Shown here piece by piece: positions 1-26,677 of a stretch of DNA of 64,000 nucleotides. The translations under genes and the position numbers were made by a program. This DNA comes from Desulfovibrio sp. DV (lineage in GTDB: Bacteria; Desulfobacterota; Desulfovibrionia; Desulfovibrionales; Desulfovibrionaceae). A model generated the notes under the pieces. That model was not told the DNA's origin and did no database searches. It saw only the letters and a list, made by a program, of their open reading frames with translations. The stretch's first letter is position 1. Every line of letters begins with the position of its first letter. The stretch lies in NCBI RefSeq assembly GCF_001936595.1, contig NZ_MLBG01000005.1:1-64000 (forward strand), written 5' to 3'.

Positions 1-28
1 GTTACCCCCTCCCGGCCGCCGGAGGCAT
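1..28 (-). repeat. Partial copy of dispersed GCCTCC repeat
   Basis: Truncated by the window edge. On the minus strand it reads ATGCCTCCGGCGGCCGGGAG and lies just downstream of the purM stop codon. It has the same orientation toward its upstream gene as every other copy of this repeat family in the window. Confidence 0.65.
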
Positions 29-38
29 CCGCCTCTTT

Positions 39-1091
39 TTACTTGCTAAACAACACTTCGACCTGCTCGGCTCCGTCTTTGCGGATGTCGATGCGGCCGA
101 TGATGCGGGCGTATTCGTGCAGGGCCTTTAAGCGTTGCATGACATCGTCGGCAATCTCCGGGGCCACCACCAGCATGAACCCCACGCCGCAGTTGAAAAT
201 CTGCAGCATCTCCGGCCAGGTGAGCTTGCCCTGCTCTTTTAACCAATCAAAGACCGGCAGCATCGGCCAGGACCCGAACCGGATATGGGCGGCCACGCCT
301 TTGGGCAGGATGCGGTTGACGTTGTCGTAGAAGCCGCCGCCGGTGATGTGGACCATGCCCTTGATGTCGAAATCGCGCAGCAAATTGAGCACGGTCTTGA
401 CGTAGATGCGCGTGGGGGCCAGCAGGGCCTCGCCCACGGTCTGGGTGGAATTGGGCAGGGGATCGGTCGGGGACAAGCCGGAGTCGGCCAGGATCTTGCG
501 AATCAGCGAATAGCCGTTGGAGTGCGGTCCCGAGGACTCGATGCCGATGATGACGTCATCGACGCCAATGCTCGAGCCGTCGACGATTTTGGCGTTGTCC
601 ACCAGCCCCACGCAAAAGCCGGCCAGATCGTAGACGCCGTCGGGATAAAACCCCGGCATCTCGGCCGTCTCGCCGCCAAGCAAGGCGCAGGACGACTCTT
701 TGCAGCCGTCGGCAATGCCGGAGACGACCTGGGCGGCCAGATCCACCGAAAGTTTGCCGGTGGCAAAATAGTCCAGGAAAAAGAGCGGCTTTGCCCCCTG
801 AACCAATATGTCGTTGACACACATGGCCACAAGGTCGATACCGATGGTATCGTGCTTTTCCATGTCGTGGGCGAGTTTGAGCTTGGTGCCCACACCGTCG
901 GTGGAGGCTACCAGCACCGGGTCGGCCATGGCTCCGGCGTCGAGTTTGAATAGGCCCCCGAAGCCGCCAATGTCGGAGAGCACGCCCTTGCTGTAGGTTC
1001 CGGCCACAATGGACTTGATGCGCGAAACCAGGGAGTTGCCGGCGTCGATGTCAACGCCTGCGGCTTTGTAGGCTGCCGATCTGTCGGCCAT
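39..1091 (-). CDS. purM: Phosphoribosylformylglycinamidine cyclo-ligase (AIR synthetase)
   Basis: PurM closes the imidazole ring of 5-aminoimidazole ribonucleotide with ATP, step five of de novo purine synthesis, in the cytoplasm. The 350-residue product has the family's usual length. It carries the N-terminal glycine loop (IGGFGGLFKLD, about residue 41), the ATP-binding segment STDGVGTKLKLA (about 63-74) and the C-terminal HITGGGFYDNVNRILP block. The start MADRSAAYK is chosen over an upstream in-frame codon because AAGGAG lies 7 bases before it. No other pur gene is nearby. The next gene is divergent with only about 26 bases between the starts, so the purM promoter must overlap the first codons of that gene. 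Confidence 0.97.
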   Translation of the reverse strand: MADRSAAYKAAGVDIDAGNSLVSRIKSIVAGTYSKGVLSDIGGFGGLFKLDAGAMADPVLVASTDGVGTKLKLAHDMEKHDTIGIDLVAMCVNDILVQGAKPLFFLDYFATGKLSVDLAAQVVSGIADGCKESSCALLGGETAEMPGFYPDGVYDLAGFCVGLVDNAKIVDGSSIGVDDVIIGIESSGPHSNGYSLIRKILADSGLSPTDPLPNSTQTVGEALLAPTRIYVKTVLNLLRDFDIKGMVHITGGGFYDNVNRILPKGVAAHIRFGSWPMLPVFDWLKEQGKLTWPEMLQIFNCGVGFMLVVAPEIADDVMQRLKALHEYARIIGRIDIRKDGAEQVEVLFSK

Positions 1092-16553: not shown

Positions 16554-18566
16554 TTACTCCGCCAGGGGAAAAAGGAAATCGAACGTCGAGCCCTGGCCGG
16601 GTGTGGAGCTGACCCGGATGGTTCCGCCCAGGCGTTCCACCTCGGCCTTGACCGCAGACAGCCCCACCCCGCGGCCGGACAAGGCGCTCACTTCTTCCTT
16701 GGTGGAAAACGAATCGGCAAAGAGCAGGCCGTAAACCTCCTGCGGGGCCATGTCCCGGGCCTTGGCCGGGGAGACAAGGCCCTTGGCCACGGCCAGTTGC
16801 AACACCCTGGCCGCGTCTATGCCCTGCCCGTCGTCAGACACCCGCAGGCAGACCGTATCGCCGGATTGCTCGATGACGCAGGCAATGCGCCCCTGCTCGC
16901 GCTTGCCATTCTCCAGACGGTCCTCGGGCGTTTCAATGCCATGGTCGATCATGTTGCGGATGACGTGGACCAGGGACTTGACGAATTTCTGGACGAGCTC
17001 CTTTTCCACGAACACGTCATCACCGCTGACGCGAAGCGGTTCGACCGACTTGCCCAAACGGGCGGCCAGGGCCTGGAGATAGTCCTGGTATTCGGCCACC
17101 AGGCTTTTTAAGGGGCAAAGCCGCAGCCGGCGCAGGGCCAGCAGGATGCCCCGGCGCTCGGGGCCATCCGGCAGGCCAGCCACCTGGGCCTCGACAGCCT
17201 GCACCATTTCCGCACTGACCTGGAACCGTTCGTCCTTCTCGAAAAAGGACTTGCCGAGGATATCCGCCAGGATGTTCACATCATCCCGGGCGATGGCCCG
17301 GCCATCCCAGCCGGCCACGATCCCGGCGAGCGACTCCTGGTCCGGGGCCTCGGGCCGGGCGACCAGTGCGGCCAGCTCGTCCTCAATGACGTGCAGATTG
17401 GCGGCCGTATTGTGCAGGCCCAATTGGGCGAAATCGCCCTTGTAGGTGTGCATCAAACGGAAAATCTCGGCCAGGGCCGCCCTGGGCTCGGCAATCTCCT
17501 GGGCCATGGCCCGGGCCTCGCCCGGGACGAAACGGTAAAATTCCTCAAGGGCCAGATTGACGTCGGATTGTTTGGTCAGGGCCTTGGCCACCATCTTGAC
17601 GTTGTTGCGCTCCTCGGTCATGCGCGCTTCAAGCTTTCGTTTCTCGGTGACGTCCGTCAAAATCAGCATCATCTTTTTGTGGTCGCCGTGGGGAATGATC
17701 TTGTAGGCCACGCTGACGGTCTTGCCGTAGATGCCGAACTCCGGCGGCAACAGGGAGAGGTAGACCTTTTCCCGCAGGGACTTGCCCGAGGCAAAGATGC
17801 TCTCGAACACCCGGGCCATGGTCTGGATGGTTTCCGGGGAAACATGCTTGGCCATGAGCTCCAGGAAATTGCGGCCCTCCATGGGCACGCGAAAGATCTG
17901 GACGCATTCCAGACTGTATTCGCCGGACACGGCCAGATCCTGTCCGAACGACAAAAAGCCCTGGCCGGCGTTGTCCATGAGGTTTTTTATCGACTCGTTT
18001 TTCTCGCGCAGCTCCAGGCTTTTCTCCTCGATCTGCCGGCGGTTGCGGATCTCGGTCTCGTTGGCCTCGTGCAGGATCTCTTTTTGCCGCTTTAAAAGTT
18101 TGATCTCCACTTCCCTGTTCTGCGACAGCTCGATCATGAAGCGTTTGACGCTGACCACGCCGGAGAACTTCTCATTCTCGGTGATGACCACGAGGTCGTA
18201 GAGCTGGTCATGGGGTCGGTTCATGGCAATGAGGCCGATGGTGGCGATATCCACCGAGACATCCACCACCAGCGGCTGGGTGTTCATGATGAGCTTGATG
18301 GGCCGGCTCATGAACAGGTCCCGGCCATAGAGCGTGCCGATCTTCTGGTAGAAATCGTTGCGCATGATCAGGCCGGCCGGGGCGTGGTTCTCCACGATGA
18401 CCACCCCTTCGGCGCTTGGATGCTCGGTGAAAAAGCGGTGCACCGCCAGACCCGGGTCAGCCGCCGCAAAGGTCCGGGTCTGCTCCACCAGATTGCCGAT
18501 GGATTGGTCTTCGGCCGAGTACGCCTCCTGGTCCATGTCCAGGTCCTTCAAGGCTGTCGCTTCCAT
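16554..18566 (-). CDS. CheA-like hybrid sensor: CBS-like, PAS-like, Hpt and kinase domains
   Basis: 670 residues, probably cytoplasmic since no membrane segment is seen. Order: CBS-like N-terminal region (about 20-145), coiled coil (150-195), PAS-like segment beginning NAGQGFLSF (198-310), Hpt-like helix with LMHTYKGDF and candidate phospho-His373, then a GHKL ATPase with N box HVIRNMIDHG, G1 DDGQGID and G2 GRGVGLSAV. It lacks the CheW-binding domain of CheA. It should autophosphorylate on the Hpt histidine and pass phosphate to the CheY-like protein encoded 43 bases upstream. It is the last of four minus-strand signalling genes. Confidence 0.87.
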   Translation of the reverse strand: MEATALKDLDMDQEAYSAEDQSIGNLVEQTRTFAAADPGLAVHRFFTEHPSAEGVVIVENHAPAGLIMRNDFYQKIGTLYGRDLFMSRPIKLIMNTQPLVVDVSVDIATIGLIAMNRPHDQLYDLVVITENEKFSGVVSVKRFMIELSQNREVEIKLLKRQKEILHEANETEIRNRRQIEEKSLELREKNESIKNLMDNAGQGFLSFGQDLAVSGEYSLECVQIFRVPMEGRNFLELMAKHVSPETIQTMARVFESIFASGKSLREKVYLSLLPPEFGIYGKTVSVAYKIIPHGDHKKMMLILTDVTEKRKLEARMTEERNNVKMVAKALTKQSDVNLALEEFYRFVPGEARAMAQEIAEPRAALAEIFRLMHTYKGDFAQLGLHNTAANLHVIEDELAALVARPEAPDQESLAGIVAGWDGRAIARDDVNILADILGKSFFEKDERFQVSAEMVQAVEAQVAGLPDGPERRGILLALRRLRLCPLKSLVAEYQDYLQALAARLGKSVEPLRVSGDDVFVEKELVQKFVKSLVHVIRNMIDHGIETPEDRLENGKREQGRIACVIEQSGDTVCLRVSDDGQGIDAARVLQLAVAKGLVSPAKARDMAPQEVYGLLFADSFSTKEEVSALSGRGVGLSAVKAEVERLGGTIRVSSTPGQGSTFDFLFPLAE

Positions 18567-18985: not shown

Positions 18986-19888
18986 TTAGCGATGATTGAA
19001 AACAGGCGAGCCGACGCCGATAAAGAAATCGAACTGCCCAAAAGACAGGGCGAAGGGAATTTTGTAGGCCGCGCCCACGGACTTGAGGCTGCCGCTGTGC
19101 TTGTATTCCGGGGGCAAAAGCTCCAGTTCGACCCATTCGTTGGACAGCTTGGAGAGGTACAGGCCATTGTGGACGTTCATGAACTCGCCCAGCGAATCCT
19201 TGGCCACCTCGTCCATGCCGGACACGGCCATCTTGGCGAAGCGGGAGGCAAATTCAGCCATGGCCGGCTCAGGTCCGGCAACACCGGTGAAAAACTTGAA
19301 GCGGCCTTCGATCTCCTGGTAGATCAGGCAGTCGAATTCCTCCAACTGGACCTTCCGGGCTTCCTCCAGCAGGATATGGTCATCAATAAAGCGGACCAGA
19401 TTGCGGACGAACAGGGCGAAATAGTCCACGTACATCTTGGCGTCGCCAAGCTCGGGCAGGTGCACCAGGGCCTGGGTGACGGTGTCGATGTCGTTGGTTT
19501 TAAGCGCCTCGAACTCCTTGGCCGAAAGCCCGGAATCCTTTTTGTAGTCCTCCAGGTAGCTCTCAAAGGTCTCGAAGGTCATGATGCCCTGGTCGATAAG
19601 GGCCTGGCTGATAAACAGGTGGCGCTTGTTTTGCTGGCCAAGCAGGACCGAGAGCTTCTCCTGGTCAAGGATGCCCCTATCGATGGCGATCTCGCCGAAA
19701 CGCTTGTCGATCGTGGATTGCAGGTTGTGGACCTCTTCAACCTGGGCTGCGGTCATGTACCCGGCGTCGATGGCCAGGACACCCAGTTTGACGCGCACGG
19801 AATCCTGCAACGCCAGCACGTCCCGCATCTGCTCCAGGGTGATGCAGCCGCGTTTGCGCAGGTAATTCCCAAAAAACTGACTGAACAT
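18986..19888 (-). CDS. CheX-type phosphatase with four tandem MshEN-like repeats
   Basis: 300 residues. The C-terminal half (about 190-300) is CheX/CheC-like: D231-x3-E235-x2-N238 matches the catalytic signature, with prolines at 259-260 where the family has one. The N-terminal 115 residues are four 24-residue units at 5-28, 34-57, 63-86 and 92-115, each separated by exactly five residues. The first three keep Gly at positions 3 and 10 and end in Gln. The 24+5+24 pattern is that of MshEN cyclic-di-GMP-binding domains. By inference the protein dephosphorylates the neighbouring CheY-like regulator under control of a nucleotide. AAGGAG eight bases upstream fixes the start. Confidence 0.85.
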   Translation of the reverse strand: MFSQFFGNYLRKRGCITLEQMRDVLALQDSVRVKLGVLAIDAGYMTAAQVEEVHNLQSTIDKRFGEIAIDRGILDQEKLSVLLGQQNKRHLFISQALIDQGIMTFETFESYLEDYKKDSGLSAKEFEALKTNDIDTVTQALVHLPELGDAKMYVDYFALFVRNLVRFIDDHILLEEARKVQLEEFDCLIYQEIEGRFKFFTGVAGPEPAMAEFASRFAKMAVSGMDEVAKDSLGEFMNVHNGLYLSKLSNEWVELELLPPEYKHSGSLKSVGAAYKIPFALSFGQFDFFIGVGSPVFNHR

Positions 19889-20063: not shown

Positions 20064-21014
20064 CTAGCCCGCCTTTCTCCTGGCCCCGGGCTCGGACGCA
20101 CAACCGCAAGCCGAGTCCTCGCGCATGATGAGATTCTTTTTCAAATCCCGGTAATATTCCAACTGGTAGGATTGCAGGAGCTTGAGCAGTTCCAGGCAGC
20201 CCTCGGCCCGGACATCCCGCCAGCGGGCCTTGTGGCCCCTGCCCAAGGCGGAAAGAAATTGCACCCCGACCTCGGGACAGGCATCGGCATCGTCGGGCAC
20301 CCGGGAGTTGCTGACCTTGGCGATAAACTCATAGCCGTGCTCCTGGTCCGGCTCCTGCCCCGGAAAGGAGAGCCTGGCCAAAAGGCGACAGCCTTGTTCC
20401 AGCCACTCCATGTGCTCCTCGAACAAGGGCCTTGGCAGGGCCAGGCGCATGCCGCCTGCCGAGATGTTTTTCAACACCGCCTGCACCGCGTCCGCCTGAT
20501 CGGTCAGTTCAAGCAGCAGGCGTTGCTCCACCAGCCGGGACTGGCTCTCGTTCTTGCTTTTGCTCACACCCCAGACCGACAGGCTGGGCAGATGGCGCCG
20601 GTGCAGTTTGAGGCGGATGTTGCGGCGTTGTTCGAGGACCGTGATGCTGGCCGGCATGGCCACGGTGATGGTTTTCAGGTCACCGTGGATTTCGGTGATC
20701 CGCCCTTGAAATTTGTGGAGCCTGGGGAACTTGTCGCTGTGGGTCTGCAGGAGAAAGCGGAACGGGAACTCCTGTTTTTCCCATATTTTGCAACAATTGT
20801 GATTGGGTCCGCGGCAGGCCAGGACCACGCTGTTGCCCTTAACCCCCTGGCAAACCATGTAGCGAAACGGCTCCATGGCCTTGTCCGGATCGATCGTCAG
20901 CTGGAATATGGCCTGCTGTTGCGCCGCCAGACCCAGGAGATTTGCCGCCATGGGGTCGGGCCTCTTTTGCCTGGACGAAAAAAGCGAAAGCAAACGCTTT
21001 AAGGAATCGTACAT
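20064..21014 (-). CDS. PilZ domain protein with YcgR-like N-terminal region
   Basis: A 316-residue predicted cyclic-di-GMP receptor. The PilZ signature is complete: RRNIR at about 130-134 and NISAGG about 55 residues later. The N-terminal 125 residues have the YcgR-type flanking beta-domain (FQGRITEIHGDLKTITV at the junction). It lies directly upstream of the CheX/receiver/kinase genes on the same strand, which suggests a link between cyclic-di-GMP and that phosphorelay. The second ATG is chosen because GGAGG sits eight bases before it. A decayed copy of part of this gene is found at 30222-30341. Confidence 0.9.
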   Translation of the reverse strand: MYDSLKRLLSLFSSRQKRPDPMAANLLGLAAQQQAIFQLTIDPDKAMEPFRYMVCQGVKGNSVVLACRGPNHNCCKIWEKQEFPFRFLLQTHSDKFPRLHKFQGRITEIHGDLKTITVAMPASITVLEQRRNIRLKLHRRHLPSLSVWGVSKSKNESQSRLVEQRLLLELTDQADAVQAVLKNISAGGMRLALPRPLFEEHMEWLEQGCRLLARLSFPGQEPDQEHGYEFIAKVSNSRVPDDADACPEVGVQFLSALGRGHKARWRDVRAEGCLELLKLLQSYQLEYYRDLKKNLIMREDSACGCASEPGARRKAG

Positions 21015-21208
21015 CTCCATCGCCTCCGCTCGTCAGTCGGAGGATGGTATAGGGGGTGAATATTGCGGACCGGTGAAAAAAAAGTGACCGATCAAAATGA
21101 CCTGCAATCTCTATAAAACCCCTCTCCCCCGGTGCGGCAAAACCGGCGAATGCCCTGGCCGACAGGCCAGGCGCACAGAAGCCCCGGCCCGGCCTGTCGG
21201 CAGGAACG

Positions 21209-22611: not shown

Positions 22612-24585
22612 CTAAAAGCTGTAGCCCAACGACAGTTGTCCGCCAAGCCCGGCGCTGCCTGCGCCGTCGCCGACAACGACATTGCCCCTGGCCTCCAGGC
22701 TGAGGGCATGGCGTCTGGCCGTGATACCCAGGCCGGCCGTCAGGAGATCGTGGCTGTCAAAGGCCGATTTCTGGCTCACGGCGAAGCCGTAGCGCGTTCC
22801 CGTGCTGGCGACCTGGGGATTGCCAAGATAGCGCTCATAGCGAAGCGTGGCCGTGGGCGCCAGGCTCCAAGCGCCGAGAATCTGCGGCTCAAGGGCTGCG
22901 TCGAGGTCAAGCAGGAGGCTTGCGGCGGTATTGTCGAGGCCATGGACGCCAAGCGCCGCTTCACTGCCGCTTTCCGTGAAAGCGCCAAGGGTCTGGCTCG
23001 TCACCCGAACCCCGGCCTGGGGCGTGAGCGTTACCGGCGAAAAAGCAATGACATCGCCCAAACCGGCCAGACCGCTGAAAAGAGCGCCGTTGGCCTGTCC
23101 GCTGGCGGCTCCCAGGCCGCCGCCCAGGGGGCGGTTGCTTCGGTAGTCCACCCAGCCGCCATCGACCCGCCCCACCACGTACGGACCGGCTTCCAGGCTC
23201 GAAAAACCGTAGCGCCCGCCGAGGGTGGCCATAACCGTATTGACCGTGGCCGTGGCCGCCGCACTCTCGACCGTGCCGGAGGTGTAGCCAAGCCCAAGGC
23301 TGGCACTCCCCCGATCACTTAAGCGGGAGGTCGCGCCGATAAGCGTGCCGGCGCTGCGTTCCGTGCTGGGGGAAATACCCGCCCGGCCCTGTGACCAGAA
23401 GCCGCTGCCCATCCCGGCCAGCCACATCCGGGCCTGCCCCGGCACGAGTTCCCGGCTGTCCGTATAGGGCGCGAGGGCCGCATCGATCCACCGGGGCTGG
23501 CGCAGCAGATACGAGGCCGCATCGGCATGGACCTGGCCGCCGACCTGCCTTTGGACGCCGCCAAGGGTGCCGGCGTCCACGGAGGACTGCAGATAGTAGT
23601 TATAGGCGGTATAACGGCCGGACAACGAGGAATTCTGCAAGGCGTTTAAGAAGGCTGCGCCGGAAGCATCATTGCCGGAATAGACGGTTTGTCCGGGCAG
23701 TATGGCATAATTGACCATCTTGCCCCGCAGCACATAGATGTCTTCCAGACTGAGGCCCAGGCCCTGGATCAGGTAGCCGTACATGGAGCCATACGAAGCC
23801 GTCACCTGATCGAGGGCCGCCTGGAGATACCCGGAATTGACGCCGAAAAGCGGGGTCAGGTCTACGCCGCGCAGTTCCGGAACCGCCGCCGCCAGGGCCG
23901 CCGCCTGGGCATCGATGGTCCCGGCCAGATAGGTATTCGAGGCCAGATAGTCGTTTAGGAGGGTGGTCGAAGACACGCCGGCAATGCTCTCCAACAGGGC
24001 CGCCACCCAGCCGGTGCGGTCCTTGCCCATGGAACAGTGGAACAGATCCGGGCCGGTGTCATGGGCCAGGGTCAAAAGGACGGTGCGAAAACCTTCCCGC
24101 TCGACCGGATTGGTCACAAAGGTCTGATAGCCGCTCTGGCCGACACTGAGGAGAGACGCCAGGGAGACGCTGGACGGGAGCATGGACGGCATGCTCGACG
24201 TGCCGATGACATTGATGTTGGTATAGACGGCTCCGGCCGGCACCACGTCGGGTGTCGCGCTGATCTCCGCAGGGGTGCGCAGGTCGATAACCCGGCCGAT
24301 GCCCAGCCCTGAAAGGGTGGTCCAATCCGCGCTGTCCAGGTCAAGGACATTGGAACGATAGAACACGCCGGTACGCATCACGCCAAAGTTGCTGGTCAGG
24401 TTGGCAAAGCCGGTCCCGCCGGCACTGGCCGAAATACCGGCAATATCCCTGAAGTTCTCGGCTGTCGTGAGAATCGGCGTGCCAATGGCCTGCTGCGCCG
24501 AGGCCGTGGCCCAGGGCAGGCAGGCGCCAAGGGCCAGAGTACAAAGGACACGACGCACCCCGACAAGCATTGTACACAGAGACAC
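22612..24585 (-). CDS. Tyrosine-phosphatase-like autotransporter
   Basis: 657 residues joining two usually separate modules. After a signal peptide (ending ATASA-QQ) comes a phosphatase domain of the Y_phosphatase3 type (LipA/MptpB-like): NFRDIAG, IDLRTPAEI, and the P-loop HCSMGKDRTG with nucleophile C184. The last 270 residues are an autotransporter beta-barrel with alternating small/aromatic strands ending LSLGYSF, the terminal Phe expected for Bam insertion. The enzyme should sit outside the cell or in the outer membrane and hydrolyse phospho-protein or phosphoinositide-like substrates. GTG 24585 with GAGG eight bases upstream is preferred to ATG 24570. First of four exported hydrolases on this strand. 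Confidence 0.87.
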   Translation of the reverse strand: MSLCTMLVGVRRVLCTLALGACLPWATASAQQAIGTPILTTAENFRDIAGISASAGGTGFANLTSNFGVMRTGVFYRSNVLDLDSADWTTLSGLGIGRVIDLRTPAEISATPDVVPAGAVYTNINVIGTSSMPSMLPSSVSLASLLSVGQSGYQTFVTNPVEREGFRTVLLTLAHDTGPDLFHCSMGKDRTGWVAALLESIAGVSSTTLLNDYLASNTYLAGTIDAQAAALAAAVPELRGVDLTPLFGVNSGYLQAALDQVTASYGSMYGYLIQGLGLSLEDIYVLRGKMVNYAILPGQTVYSGNDASGAAFLNALQNSSLSGRYTAYNYYLQSSVDAGTLGGVQRQVGGQVHADAASYLLRQPRWIDAALAPYTDSRELVPGQARMWLAGMGSGFWSQGRAGISPSTERSAGTLIGATSRLSDRGSASLGLGYTSGTVESAAATATVNTVMATLGGRYGFSSLEAGPYVVGRVDGGWVDYRSNRPLGGGLGAASGQANGALFSGLAGLGDVIAFSPVTLTPQAGVRVTSQTLGAFTESGSEAALGVHGLDNTAASLLLDLDAALEPQILGAWSLAPTATLRYERYLGNPQVASTGTRYGFAVSQKSAFDSHDLLTAGLGITARRHALSLEARGNVVVGDGAGSAGLGGQLSLGYSF

Positions 24586-24800
24586 GTTACCCACCTCGTT
24601 TGTTGCGATGTATCCGTTACGCCAATCGGGCCGGAGGCCTTCCCCGGCCTGACGCCCTGGCCCTGCGGCGCTCTTTGCCGCCGCCACGTGGCCGGCCTGT
24701 CAGCACAGCTTTTTCCAACATGCGCCCCCCACCCCGCCCTAACTTTGGCCAATGACGCCGCCTCACAGGCCGGGGTCGGCGTTTGGCCACGGCGCGGCGC

Positions 24801-26534
24801 TCAGGCTCCGGTTGCCGCCGGGGCGGCTTTGGCCGGCATCGGCGTCCCGGATGCCGCCAGTTTCGCCTGCATCTGCGGGCTAAGCGGCACCACCAGTTCC
24901 CCATTGTAGGTGCCGGTTGGCAGGTAGGGCATGGGGTTGGAGGAAATCGCCGGATTGACGATAAGCTGCATGGCGGCCACGGCATGGGAACGGGACACGG
25001 CGGCCAACGACCCGTCCTCAAGCTGGGGGCCGGCATTGACGGTCACGATGGAAACCGTGCCGTCGCTGTTGCGCACGATGTCGAAAGTGCGAAACTGCTG
25101 GGGGAAGTCGCGCAACGAGGCGGTCTCGACCTGCCAGAAGCCGAGTTCCGGACGGGTCTGGTCCGGGGAGGGAAAGGCAGTGACCGTGTTGTAATGACGA
25201 TGTCCGGCGATCCACAACAGAAGATTGGGATAGCTGTGGAGCTTGGCGAAAAGCGCCTCTTCCGTGACATAGGCCTTGTCCCACCAGCTCATGAACGCGC
25301 CCGGCTTTTCCACGCCGATGGGGATGTGGGCGGCGATAATCATGAGCTTGCCCTCGGCCTGCCCCGCATCCAGTTCGCCGACCAGCCAGTCCCAGCGCTT
25401 CTTGTCCACGCTGCCGTGCCAGAGAAAGCCCCGGCCGGAAAAGTCCTCGTTTTGCTGGGTGTCGTCCAGGACGATGACCTTAAGCGGCACGTCGGCTTTG
25501 GGCTCGAAGCTGTAGCAGGCAAAGTCGGCATCGACATTGGCCTGGGTAAAGCCGTGCCCGACCGGTTGGGAGGAGGTCTTCAAAAATTCGCCCATCCACT
25601 CCCGGCGGGTCAGGGGCCGGCGGTCCGGGTCCGGGACGACCTTGGGCGGGCTGGCAAAGTCGGTCACCGGCCCGGAATCGATCACCGTGCCGTAAGGGGT
25701 GCCGCCGTCGATGGTCCCCATATAAAAGCCCCGGCTGTCCATGCCGTCGACCAGGATGTTGCCGAGGTTTAAGACCGTATCGCCGAGGCAGGCCTGACGC
25801 AGATAGTCGTCCACCGGAGCCGAGCCCAGCCAGAAGTGGTCGTGGTTGCCAAGGGCCTGGTACCAGGGAATGGACCGGTGGAGCCCGGCGGCCTGGAAGG
25901 GTTTTTGATAGTCGATGGTATCGGCCCCGGCATGGTCTCCGGAACTGGGGGTGATGGGCTTGCCGTCCAGGATGTCGACGTACCAGCGCAGTTCGTTGTA
26001 GAGCGTGCTGTTGCAGGCATCGCCCAGGGAGATGCCGAAATCGATGGGGTCCTGGGCATTGAGGGCGTTTATGGCCTGCACTGCCGCGTCAAACACCTGG
26101 GTGGTATAGAGCATGACCGGGGAATAGGCCGAGGAAATATGCCGCACAAGGCCGAGGCCGATCAACTGGGCCGGCGACTGCTTGTCCGTCAGATGGATGT
26201 CGCTGATGGTGAAAAAGCGGATCAGCCGCGCCGCCCGGGCCGCGCCCTGGCCGCTGTAGCCAGACGGCATGAGGTCCAGCCTTTTGGGGCAGTCCAGCCC
26301 CGGGGCAAACGTAAAGACGCCATAGCCATACCGGGCAAATTGGCCGATGTCCGTCGGCGACAGGGCCGGGGACGCGGCAGGCACCGGGACGGCGACCACG
26401 GTCCGCTCCAGGCTGGTCCAGGGAATGACCGCTGCGACCGCCGGTTTCGGACCGGGCATGGCGTAGACGCCGCAGGCAATGCAGGCCGCGCCGGCCGCGC
26501 CGGTCTTCAAAAAGGCTCTTCTCGACATCGCCAT
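24801..26534 (-). CDS. Tat-exported calcineurin-like metallophosphoesterase
   Basis: 577 residues. The N-terminus has a Tat motif (SRRAFLK) and a hydrophobic segment, so the folded enzyme with its metals is exported. Calcineurin-type blocks are ISDIHL (first metal), SLGDACNS in place of GDxxD, ALGNHDHFW (GNHD), IIAAHIPI and WIAGHRHYN (GHxH). It should hydrolyse phosphomono- or diesters in the periplasm; the family resembles a long uncharacterised TIGR03768-like group. The C-terminal 40 residues are Ala/Pro-rich. GGAGA precedes the start. Flanked on the same strand by other exported phosphatase genes. Confidence 0.9.
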   Translation of the reverse strand: MAMSRRAFLKTGAAGAACIACGVYAMPGPKPAVAAVIPWTSLERTVVAVPVPAASPALSPTDIGQFARYGYGVFTFAPGLDCPKRLDLMPSGYSGQGAARAARLIRFFTISDIHLTDKQSPAQLIGLGLVRHISSAYSPVMLYTTQVFDAAVQAINALNAQDPIDFGISLGDACNSTLYNELRWYVDILDGKPITPSSGDHAGADTIDYQKPFQAAGLHRSIPWYQALGNHDHFWLGSAPVDDYLRQACLGDTVLNLGNILVDGMDSRGFYMGTIDGGTPYGTVIDSGPVTDFASPPKVVPDPDRRPLTRREWMGEFLKTSSQPVGHGFTQANVDADFACYSFEPKADVPLKVIVLDDTQQNEDFSGRGFLWHGSVDKKRWDWLVGELDAGQAEGKLMIIAAHIPIGVEKPGAFMSWWDKAYVTEEALFAKLHSYPNLLLWIAGHRHYNTVTAFPSPDQTRPELGFWQVETASLRDFPQQFRTFDIVRNSDGTVSIVTVNAGPQLEDGSLAAVSRSHAVAAMQLIVNPAISSNPMPYLPTGTYNGELVVPLSPQMQAKLAASGTPMPAKAAPAATGA

Positions 26535-26677
26535 GGTTTTTCTCCGATGGGGCCGTAGGATTTCTGTTTGGATGCCACGCCCCAGAGCATGAAAAGCCCC
26601 CGGAAGCCGGCAGCAACGCCGCCGGGCTGCCCGCAAACCGGCCGGCTCCTGCCCTCTTTCGCGGCGGCTTGCCCGCC

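Follow-up and report, generated by a model that had tools for sequence, protein, structure and literature searches.

An MshEN-like repeat array joined to a CheX-type domain, and its conserved CheY neighbour, in Desulfovibrio sp. DV and a Desulfobacterota/Bacillota family

The locus described here lies in a 64,000-nucleotide stretch of Desulfovibrio sp. DV (RefSeq assembly GCF_001936595.1, contig NZ_MLBG01000005.1, positions 1 to 64,000), referred to below as the window, and consists of four genes that follow one another on one strand in the order PilZ protein, MshEN-like-CheX protein, CheY and CheA-like kinase (Table 1). The open reading frame of the MshEN-like-CheX protein starts with ATG at 19888 on the minus strand, and the CheY gene begins 13 bases past its stop codon. 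A Pfam scan at E ≤ 10 found no CheW domain in the CheA-like kinase. Elsewhere in the window, a single open reading frame at 22612-24687 (minus strand) carries a Y_phosphatase3 tyrosine-phosphatase domain together with an autotransporter beta-domain, a composition that suggests a surface-exported phosphatase; the reading frame adjoining it, at 24801-26636 (minus strand), matches Calcineurin-like phosphoesterase at 23.3 bits (cut-off 21.5).

Table 1. Positions in the window of the repeat-CheX gene, its parts and its neighbours
Feature	Position	Strand	Basis or remark
MshEN-like(x4)-CheX protein, 300 aa + stop	18986..19888	minus	translation; NF053729; AlphaFold
Repeat unit 1, residues 5-28, FFG start	19805..19876	minus	sequence, conservation
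Repeat unit 2, residues 34-57	19718..19789	minus	MshE-like pair with unit 3
Repeat unit 3, residues 63-86	19631..19702	minus	MshE-like pair with unit 2
Repeat unit 4, residues 92-115, degenerate	19544..19615	minus	sequence, conservation
His54 (unit 2 position 21)	19727..19729	minus	MshE equivalent is guanine-contacting Leu29
Asp61, spacer of units 2/3	19706..19708	minus	conservation
CheX-type domain (predicted), residues 148-293	19010..19447	minus	VIA-align to 1squ_A
CheX active-site motif D231-x3-E235-x2-N238	19175..19198	minus	complete motif in 48/62
Partner CheY, stand-alone receiver, 120 aa	18610..18972	minus	Pfam Response_reg 8.2e-26; active-site residues present
CheA-like kinase	16554..18566	minus	Hpt + HATPase domains; weak sub-cut-off CBS match
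PilZ-domain protein, upstream of CheX gene	20064..21020	minus	Pfam PilZ 26.0 bits, cut-off 22.5

Translation of the window protein gave four 24-residue units separated by spacers of 5 residues each, with the arrangement and residue numbers described in the original prediction, whose observation of glycine at unit positions 3 and 10 and glutamine at position 24 of units 1-3 was also correct; unit 4 has Ser3, Gly10 and Tyr24. Self-similarity within residues 5-115 was maximal at a shift of 29 (BLOSUM62 sum 55), and a chance repeat was rejected because none of 5000 shuffles equalled this sum at shifts of 5-59. The window's own genome encodes another protein that opens with the same four units and continues for ~160 residues (L006:820-1659, minus strand, contig C40); in hhalign its match to A1 covered residues 5-113 (probability 98.6), and a CheX scan of the genome returned nothing on that contig.

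The expected profile match to MshEN was obtained in part: the NCBIfam model NF053729 ('c-di-GMP_motif, MshE-related') scored the window protein at 55.2 bits, above its cut-off of 38, and was matched by 41/41 aligned relatives at E ≤ 0.001, but Pfam MshEN (PF05157) matched neither the window protein at E ≤ 10 nor any position of the locus in a genome scan. For the C-terminal part, Pfam CheX (PF13690, cut-off 27) gave 24.8 bits in the protein scan and 27.3 bits in the genome scan, and by sequence the CheX assignment of the window protein is borderline. Ten relatives scored on either side of the same cut-off, five above (28.4 to 56.5 bits) and five below (14.6 to 24.7 bits), and 35/41 relatives were matched at E ≤ 0.01. 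DUF4388 matched 13/41 members at E ≤ 0.01, with the score of the window protein under the cut-off, and matches to FumaraseC_C, EpsG, HHD_RTEL1 and similar models were set aside, all being under their own cut-offs.

By predicted fold the CheX assignment is clear. The AlphaFold2 model of the window protein (41 aligned members, mean pLDDT 85.3, pTM 0.69) is laid out as four hairpins (eight helices) and two more helices followed by a CheX fold, and its CheX part aligned in VIA-align to CheX of Thermotoga maritima, with Z 17.9 for 1squ_A (model residues 148-293, 146 aligned, rmsd 2.3) and Z 17.2 for 1xko, and to 3hzh_B, the Borrelia CheX solved with CheY, with Z 16.9. The solved Thermotoga and Borrelia chains share this fold with the CheX part of the window protein, are about 150 residues long and have no N-terminal repeat array. 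The motif known for CheX is D/S-x3-E-x2-N, and the window protein reads DSLGEFMN at residues 231-238, i.e. D-x3-E-x2-N, so that with the predicted fold a CheX-type domain with an intact motif is supported, as is the fusion of such a domain to MshEN-like repeats, for which the NF053729 matches in the relatives speak as well.

In the repeat array, it is units 2 and 3 that resemble MshE most closely. Model residues 32-89, which span these two units, aligned to c-di-GMP-bound MshE (5htl_B) at Z 11.2 (rmsd 2.0, 58 aligned), with 33-34% identity in structure alignments to 5htl; Foldseek superposed them on 5htl with rmsd 0.8 over 55 columns at a weak E-value of 0.18, and phmmer against PDB sequences matched MshE to the same stretch as the model. 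Residues 1-120 modelled alone (pLDDT 89.9, pTM 0.83) aligned through units 2+3 to 5htl_A at Z 7.7, a value that alone is not decisive for a helical bundle and could reflect a common helical arrangement, and to PilF GSPII-B at Z 6.6-7.1. The N-terminal region is thus predicted to form an MshEN_N-type four-helix bundle through units 2+3. NF053729 itself reports two stretches in the window protein, the best being residues 6-55 (units 1+2), and in the genome scan its overlapping pairs scored 35.6 bits (1+2), 30.9 bits (2+3) and 26.1 bits (3+4). This ranking somewhat favours pair 1+2 at the level of sequence and was placed below the structural and conservation evidence for 2+3. Units 1 and 4 may pair with each other in the model, as a VIA-align row for 9g1w indicates (Z 3.8, 61 aligned, model range 1..120), a match too weak to use.

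Conservation was assessed over 62 full-length members, comprising the window protein, 41 loci (L042-L082) and 20 further loci, of which 24 remain after filtering to <60% mutual identity. The 41 loci were found with peptide patterns, one of which was MFSQFFGN, and therefore the conservation of residues 1-8 among them arises partly by selection; the 20 further loci are free of that bias. Left out of the 62 were duplicate places (L007-L009, L012, L083-L085), narrower copies (L013-L020, L086-L096), the second full-length member of one genome (L155 in G298) and two Bacillota loci, L097 and L098. Full-length matches were present in 12/299 genomes sampled from the phylum of Eubacterium xylanophilum (Bacillota; G297, the genome of L080), that genome included. 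Among 297 genomes of the window's phylum, four matched across the CheX part (the window's own, G213, G277 and G004), and five of one family matched via the repeats, with Pfam CheX confirmed in 3/3 tested. In a tree of 35 members, the window clade lies beside a Bacillota cassette with the same four-gene order (L108; 93/74, an unsecured branch), and both belong to a secured group of 30 rows, 25 of them Bacillota. The Desulfobacterota label requires 2 changes on the tree, which was rooted at its midpoint and has two long rows, and forms a single clade in 0/200 bootstrap trees; the secured branches are compatible with one origin. These results suggest, and do not prove, horizontal transfer of the family.

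The four units are conserved very unequally. Gly3 is kept in 61/62, 59/62, 61/62 and 17/62 members in units 1 to 4, respectively (23, 23, 23 and 13 of the 24 members <60% identical), and Gln24 in 21/62, 62/62, 59/62 and 0/62 (14, 24, 22 and 0 of the 24). The fold thus seems not to need Gln24, given its low count in unit 1 and its absence from unit 4, and the retention of both Gly3 and Gln24 by units 2 and 3 alone favours a single ligand site at this pair over two sites. The original prediction had spoken of a doubled array; taken as two complete sensors (units 1+2 and 3+4), this is unlikely and was set aside as the preferred reading, because sequence and model select units 2+3 for the match to MshE and because unit 4 is without Gln24 in all 62 members and without Gly3 in 45/62.

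In each MshE unit the ligand is contacted by the backbone at Gly3 and the next residue, by Gln24 and by leucines 17 and 21, and Leu29 contacts guanine (PMC5013675). Like the units of the window protein, the two 24-residue motifs of Vibrio cholerae MshE (5htl) lie 5 residues apart (PMC5013675), and units 2 and 3 share with MshE a basic position 1 as well as Gly3 and Gln24. The consensus residues Arg/Lys/Leu at position 1, a hydrophobic residue at position 2, Gly3 and Gln24 are present as K34 L35 G36 Q57 in unit 2 and R63 F64 G65 Q86 in unit 3, and since position 1 tolerates Lys or Leu (PMC11731258), Lys34 is no obstacle. In both motifs the consensus is also hydrophobic at positions 17 and 21, and here unit 2 departs from it, having Val50 but His54. 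The relaxed MshEN motif of Wang et al. (2016), which demands a hydrophobic residue at position 21 (PMC5013675), constrains 11 positions and is passed by unit 3 only; unit 1 fails at positions 1, 7 and 11, unit 2 at 21 and unit 4 at 1 and 3. With His54 at position 21 of unit 2, the window protein is therefore not classed as a consensus c-di-GMP binder.

This departure is a property of the family. Position 21 of unit 2, a leucine in the first motif of MshE, is His or Asn in 56/62 members (21/24 of the <60%-identity set), and Asp61, in the spacer that follows unit 2, is kept in ≥90% of the 41 aligned members. In 18 comparison pairs, drawn from 58 loci scanned, position 21 was Leu, Ile or Val in 18/18 and the spacer position of Asp61 was Gly in 13/18 and Asp in 0/18, although these pairs lean to the consensus because the search pattern fixes positions other than 17 and 21, and 13/18 came from loci picked by best NF053729 score. 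The residue at position 21 weighs against simple binding of c-di-GMP, and the changes at His/Asn54 and Asp61 may tune affinity or ligand choice. One alternative, rather unlikely in our judgement, is that the array has lost nucleotide binding and acts as a scaffold, either for dimerisation or for docking the protein on CheY, the kinase or some other partner. His/Asn at the guanine-contact position would fit such a role, as would the missing Pfam MshEN match, the degenerate units 1 and 4 and the precedent of XpsE, in which the fold is kept and c-di-GMP binding is lost, with L29R, at the same residue as MshE Leu29, among its listed changes (PMC5013675). Against a scaffold stands the joint retention of Gly3 and Gln24 in units 2 and 3, with Gln24 wholly absent from unit 4, which is a ligand-contact pattern rather than a fold pattern. 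A further alternative, distinctly unlikely, is that the array uses His/Asn54 and Asp61 in place of Leu and Gly to bind a different or additional nucleotide, e.g. a cGAMP-type or linear dinucleotide. The family-specific nature of both residues is consistent with this, and cGAMP is a ligand of MshE itself, though a weaker one than c-di-GMP (PMC5013675); His54 together with Phe64 could, on the other hand, equally stack on guanine.

The second conserved feature of the family is its CheY neighbour. A same-strand CheY lies within 100 bases (profile ends) in 41/41 of the loci L042-L082 and 18/20 of the further loci, i.e. in 60/62 loci with the window included. Of the two misses, L112 has no CheY neighbour and L124 is unjudgeable, with only 173 bases of contig upstream; the genome of L112 (G521) holds two family members, one with a CheY neighbour (L113) and one without. 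The CheX gene precedes CheY in 40 loci, the window among them, and follows it in 20, and all 60 neighbouring CheYs retain the acidic pair, phospho-Asp, Ser/Thr and Lys. L155, outside the 62, has a CheY 85 bases downstream. By comparison, 0/24 stand-alone CheX loci taken from the same search of the phylum had a CheY within 200 bases, in flanks that covered 1.4-2.0 kb on either side; this control was enlarged from 5 to 24 loci drawn from CheX-only matches blind to their neighbours. The Bacillota loci L097 and L098 encode shorter proteins, match the family model only from position 85/92 (about unit 4), without units 1-3, and yet have a CheY 5 bases upstream; thus the CheX-CheY pairing is independent of the sensor, which these members have perhaps lost.

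The remaining genes of the window cluster recur less often. A CheA-like kinase was found in 8/62 loci (the window, L042, L043, L117 and L118, and in Bacillota L108, L109 and L116, where the kinase relatives lie downstream of CheY), and a PilZ gene in 4/62 clusters (the window, L042, L043 and L108, the last Pfam-confirmed on the copy L089), counts that may be too low because one kinase query and two PilZ queries were used and flanks were short in some loci. At L080 and L074 the CheX-CheY pair sits among genes read by eye as metabolic, and no adjacent kinase or PilZ gene was found. The genome of the window has 31 GGDEF matches, so c-di-GMP is probably made in the host, and the many GGDEF proteins together with the PilZ neighbours indicate c-di-GMP and weigh against a different nucleotide.

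The CheX motif D-x3-E-x2-N is complete in 48 members, the window protein among them, and its Asn is present in 62/62. The first residue is Ala in 14/62 members, 9 of which also have Asp for Glu (A-x3-D-x2-N in L056, L066, L071, L073, L074, L076, L077, L079 and L106), and all 14 belong to the 20 loci in which CheY precedes CheX. Phosphatase activity may therefore not be general in the family. These substitutions would suit a CheX domain that is non-catalytic in vivo and acts as a ligand-switched binder sequestering CheY, a reading that we hold to be distinctly unlikely given the complete motif in most members and the invariant Asn.

The domain pairing itself is already in print. Wang et al. (2016) list CheA and CheX among the domains associated with MshEN (PMC5013675), which contradicts the earlier statement that no described example was known; in the main text CheX is named once, in a clause that gives the same domain combination as the family described here without naming a protein, a number of repeats, a CheY partner or an experiment for it (PMC5013675). 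Searches of the literature in open-licence papers found no characterised MshEN-CheX case. Relative to MshE, the window protein has four units instead of two and CheX instead of an ATPase. Long MshEN-type arrays are not unusual elsewhere: several frames outside the family have two matches in a row (e.g. G030:C6, G004:C76), and Thermus thermophilus PilF has three GSPII domains of tandem motifs, with Lys/Leu at position 1 and three motifs in the last domain (PMC11731258). Units 2+3 align to PilF GSPII-B, although the PilF array sits on a pilus ATPase. Thus, what is new here is a conserved Desulfobacterota/Bacillota family with a CheY partner and an altered site.

The known links between c-di-GMP and chemotaxis-type signalling have motors, receptors, CheR or CheY-like proteins as their targets. 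In Cle of Caulobacter the CheY-like protein itself reportedly binds c-di-GMP, whereas in the window protein the sensor would sit on the phosphatase and not on the CheY-like protein. The Caulobacter Cle proteins provide c-di-GMP input to CheY-type signalling (PMC5677366), as is proposed here. The idea that a second messenger controls dephosphorylation of a receiver is plausible, and the CheY neighbour found at nearly every locus strengthens it. On our preferred reading, in which we have roughly even confidence, the whole protein is a nucleotide-controlled CheY-P phosphatase whose units 2+3 bind one cyclic dinucleotide, most likely c-di-GMP. Units 2+3 would form the four-helix bundle of MshEN_N type that holds the ligand, flanked by units 1 and 4 as structural hairpins; on binding, the array would move against the CheX domain or the CheX dimer, and this shift would alter, in one direction or the other, the rate at which Glu235 and Asn238 strip the phosphoryl group from the neighbouring CheY, the presumed substrate. 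CheY would be loaded in the window by the cluster's CheA-like kinase and at the pair-only loci by a kinase encoded elsewhere. A bolder extension, which we consider unlikely, is that the family constitutes a mobile Desulfobacterota/Bacillota module built around one stand-alone receiver: a CheA-like kinase that has no CheW domain would phosphorylate it, a CheX gated by a cyclic dinucleotide would dephosphorylate it, and the MshEN-type site would have been re-tooled at His/Asn54 and Asp61 for an altered ligand or affinity.

If the extended reading is true, phosphorylation input and second-messenger input would converge on one protein. The altered site raises the question of which ligand the array evolved for, and the conserved CheX-CheY gene pair lends itself to a simple test in vitro, since it supplies the enzyme together with its probable substrate. 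If the protein is a gated CheY-P phosphatase, the messenger would set the lifetime of the signal directly.
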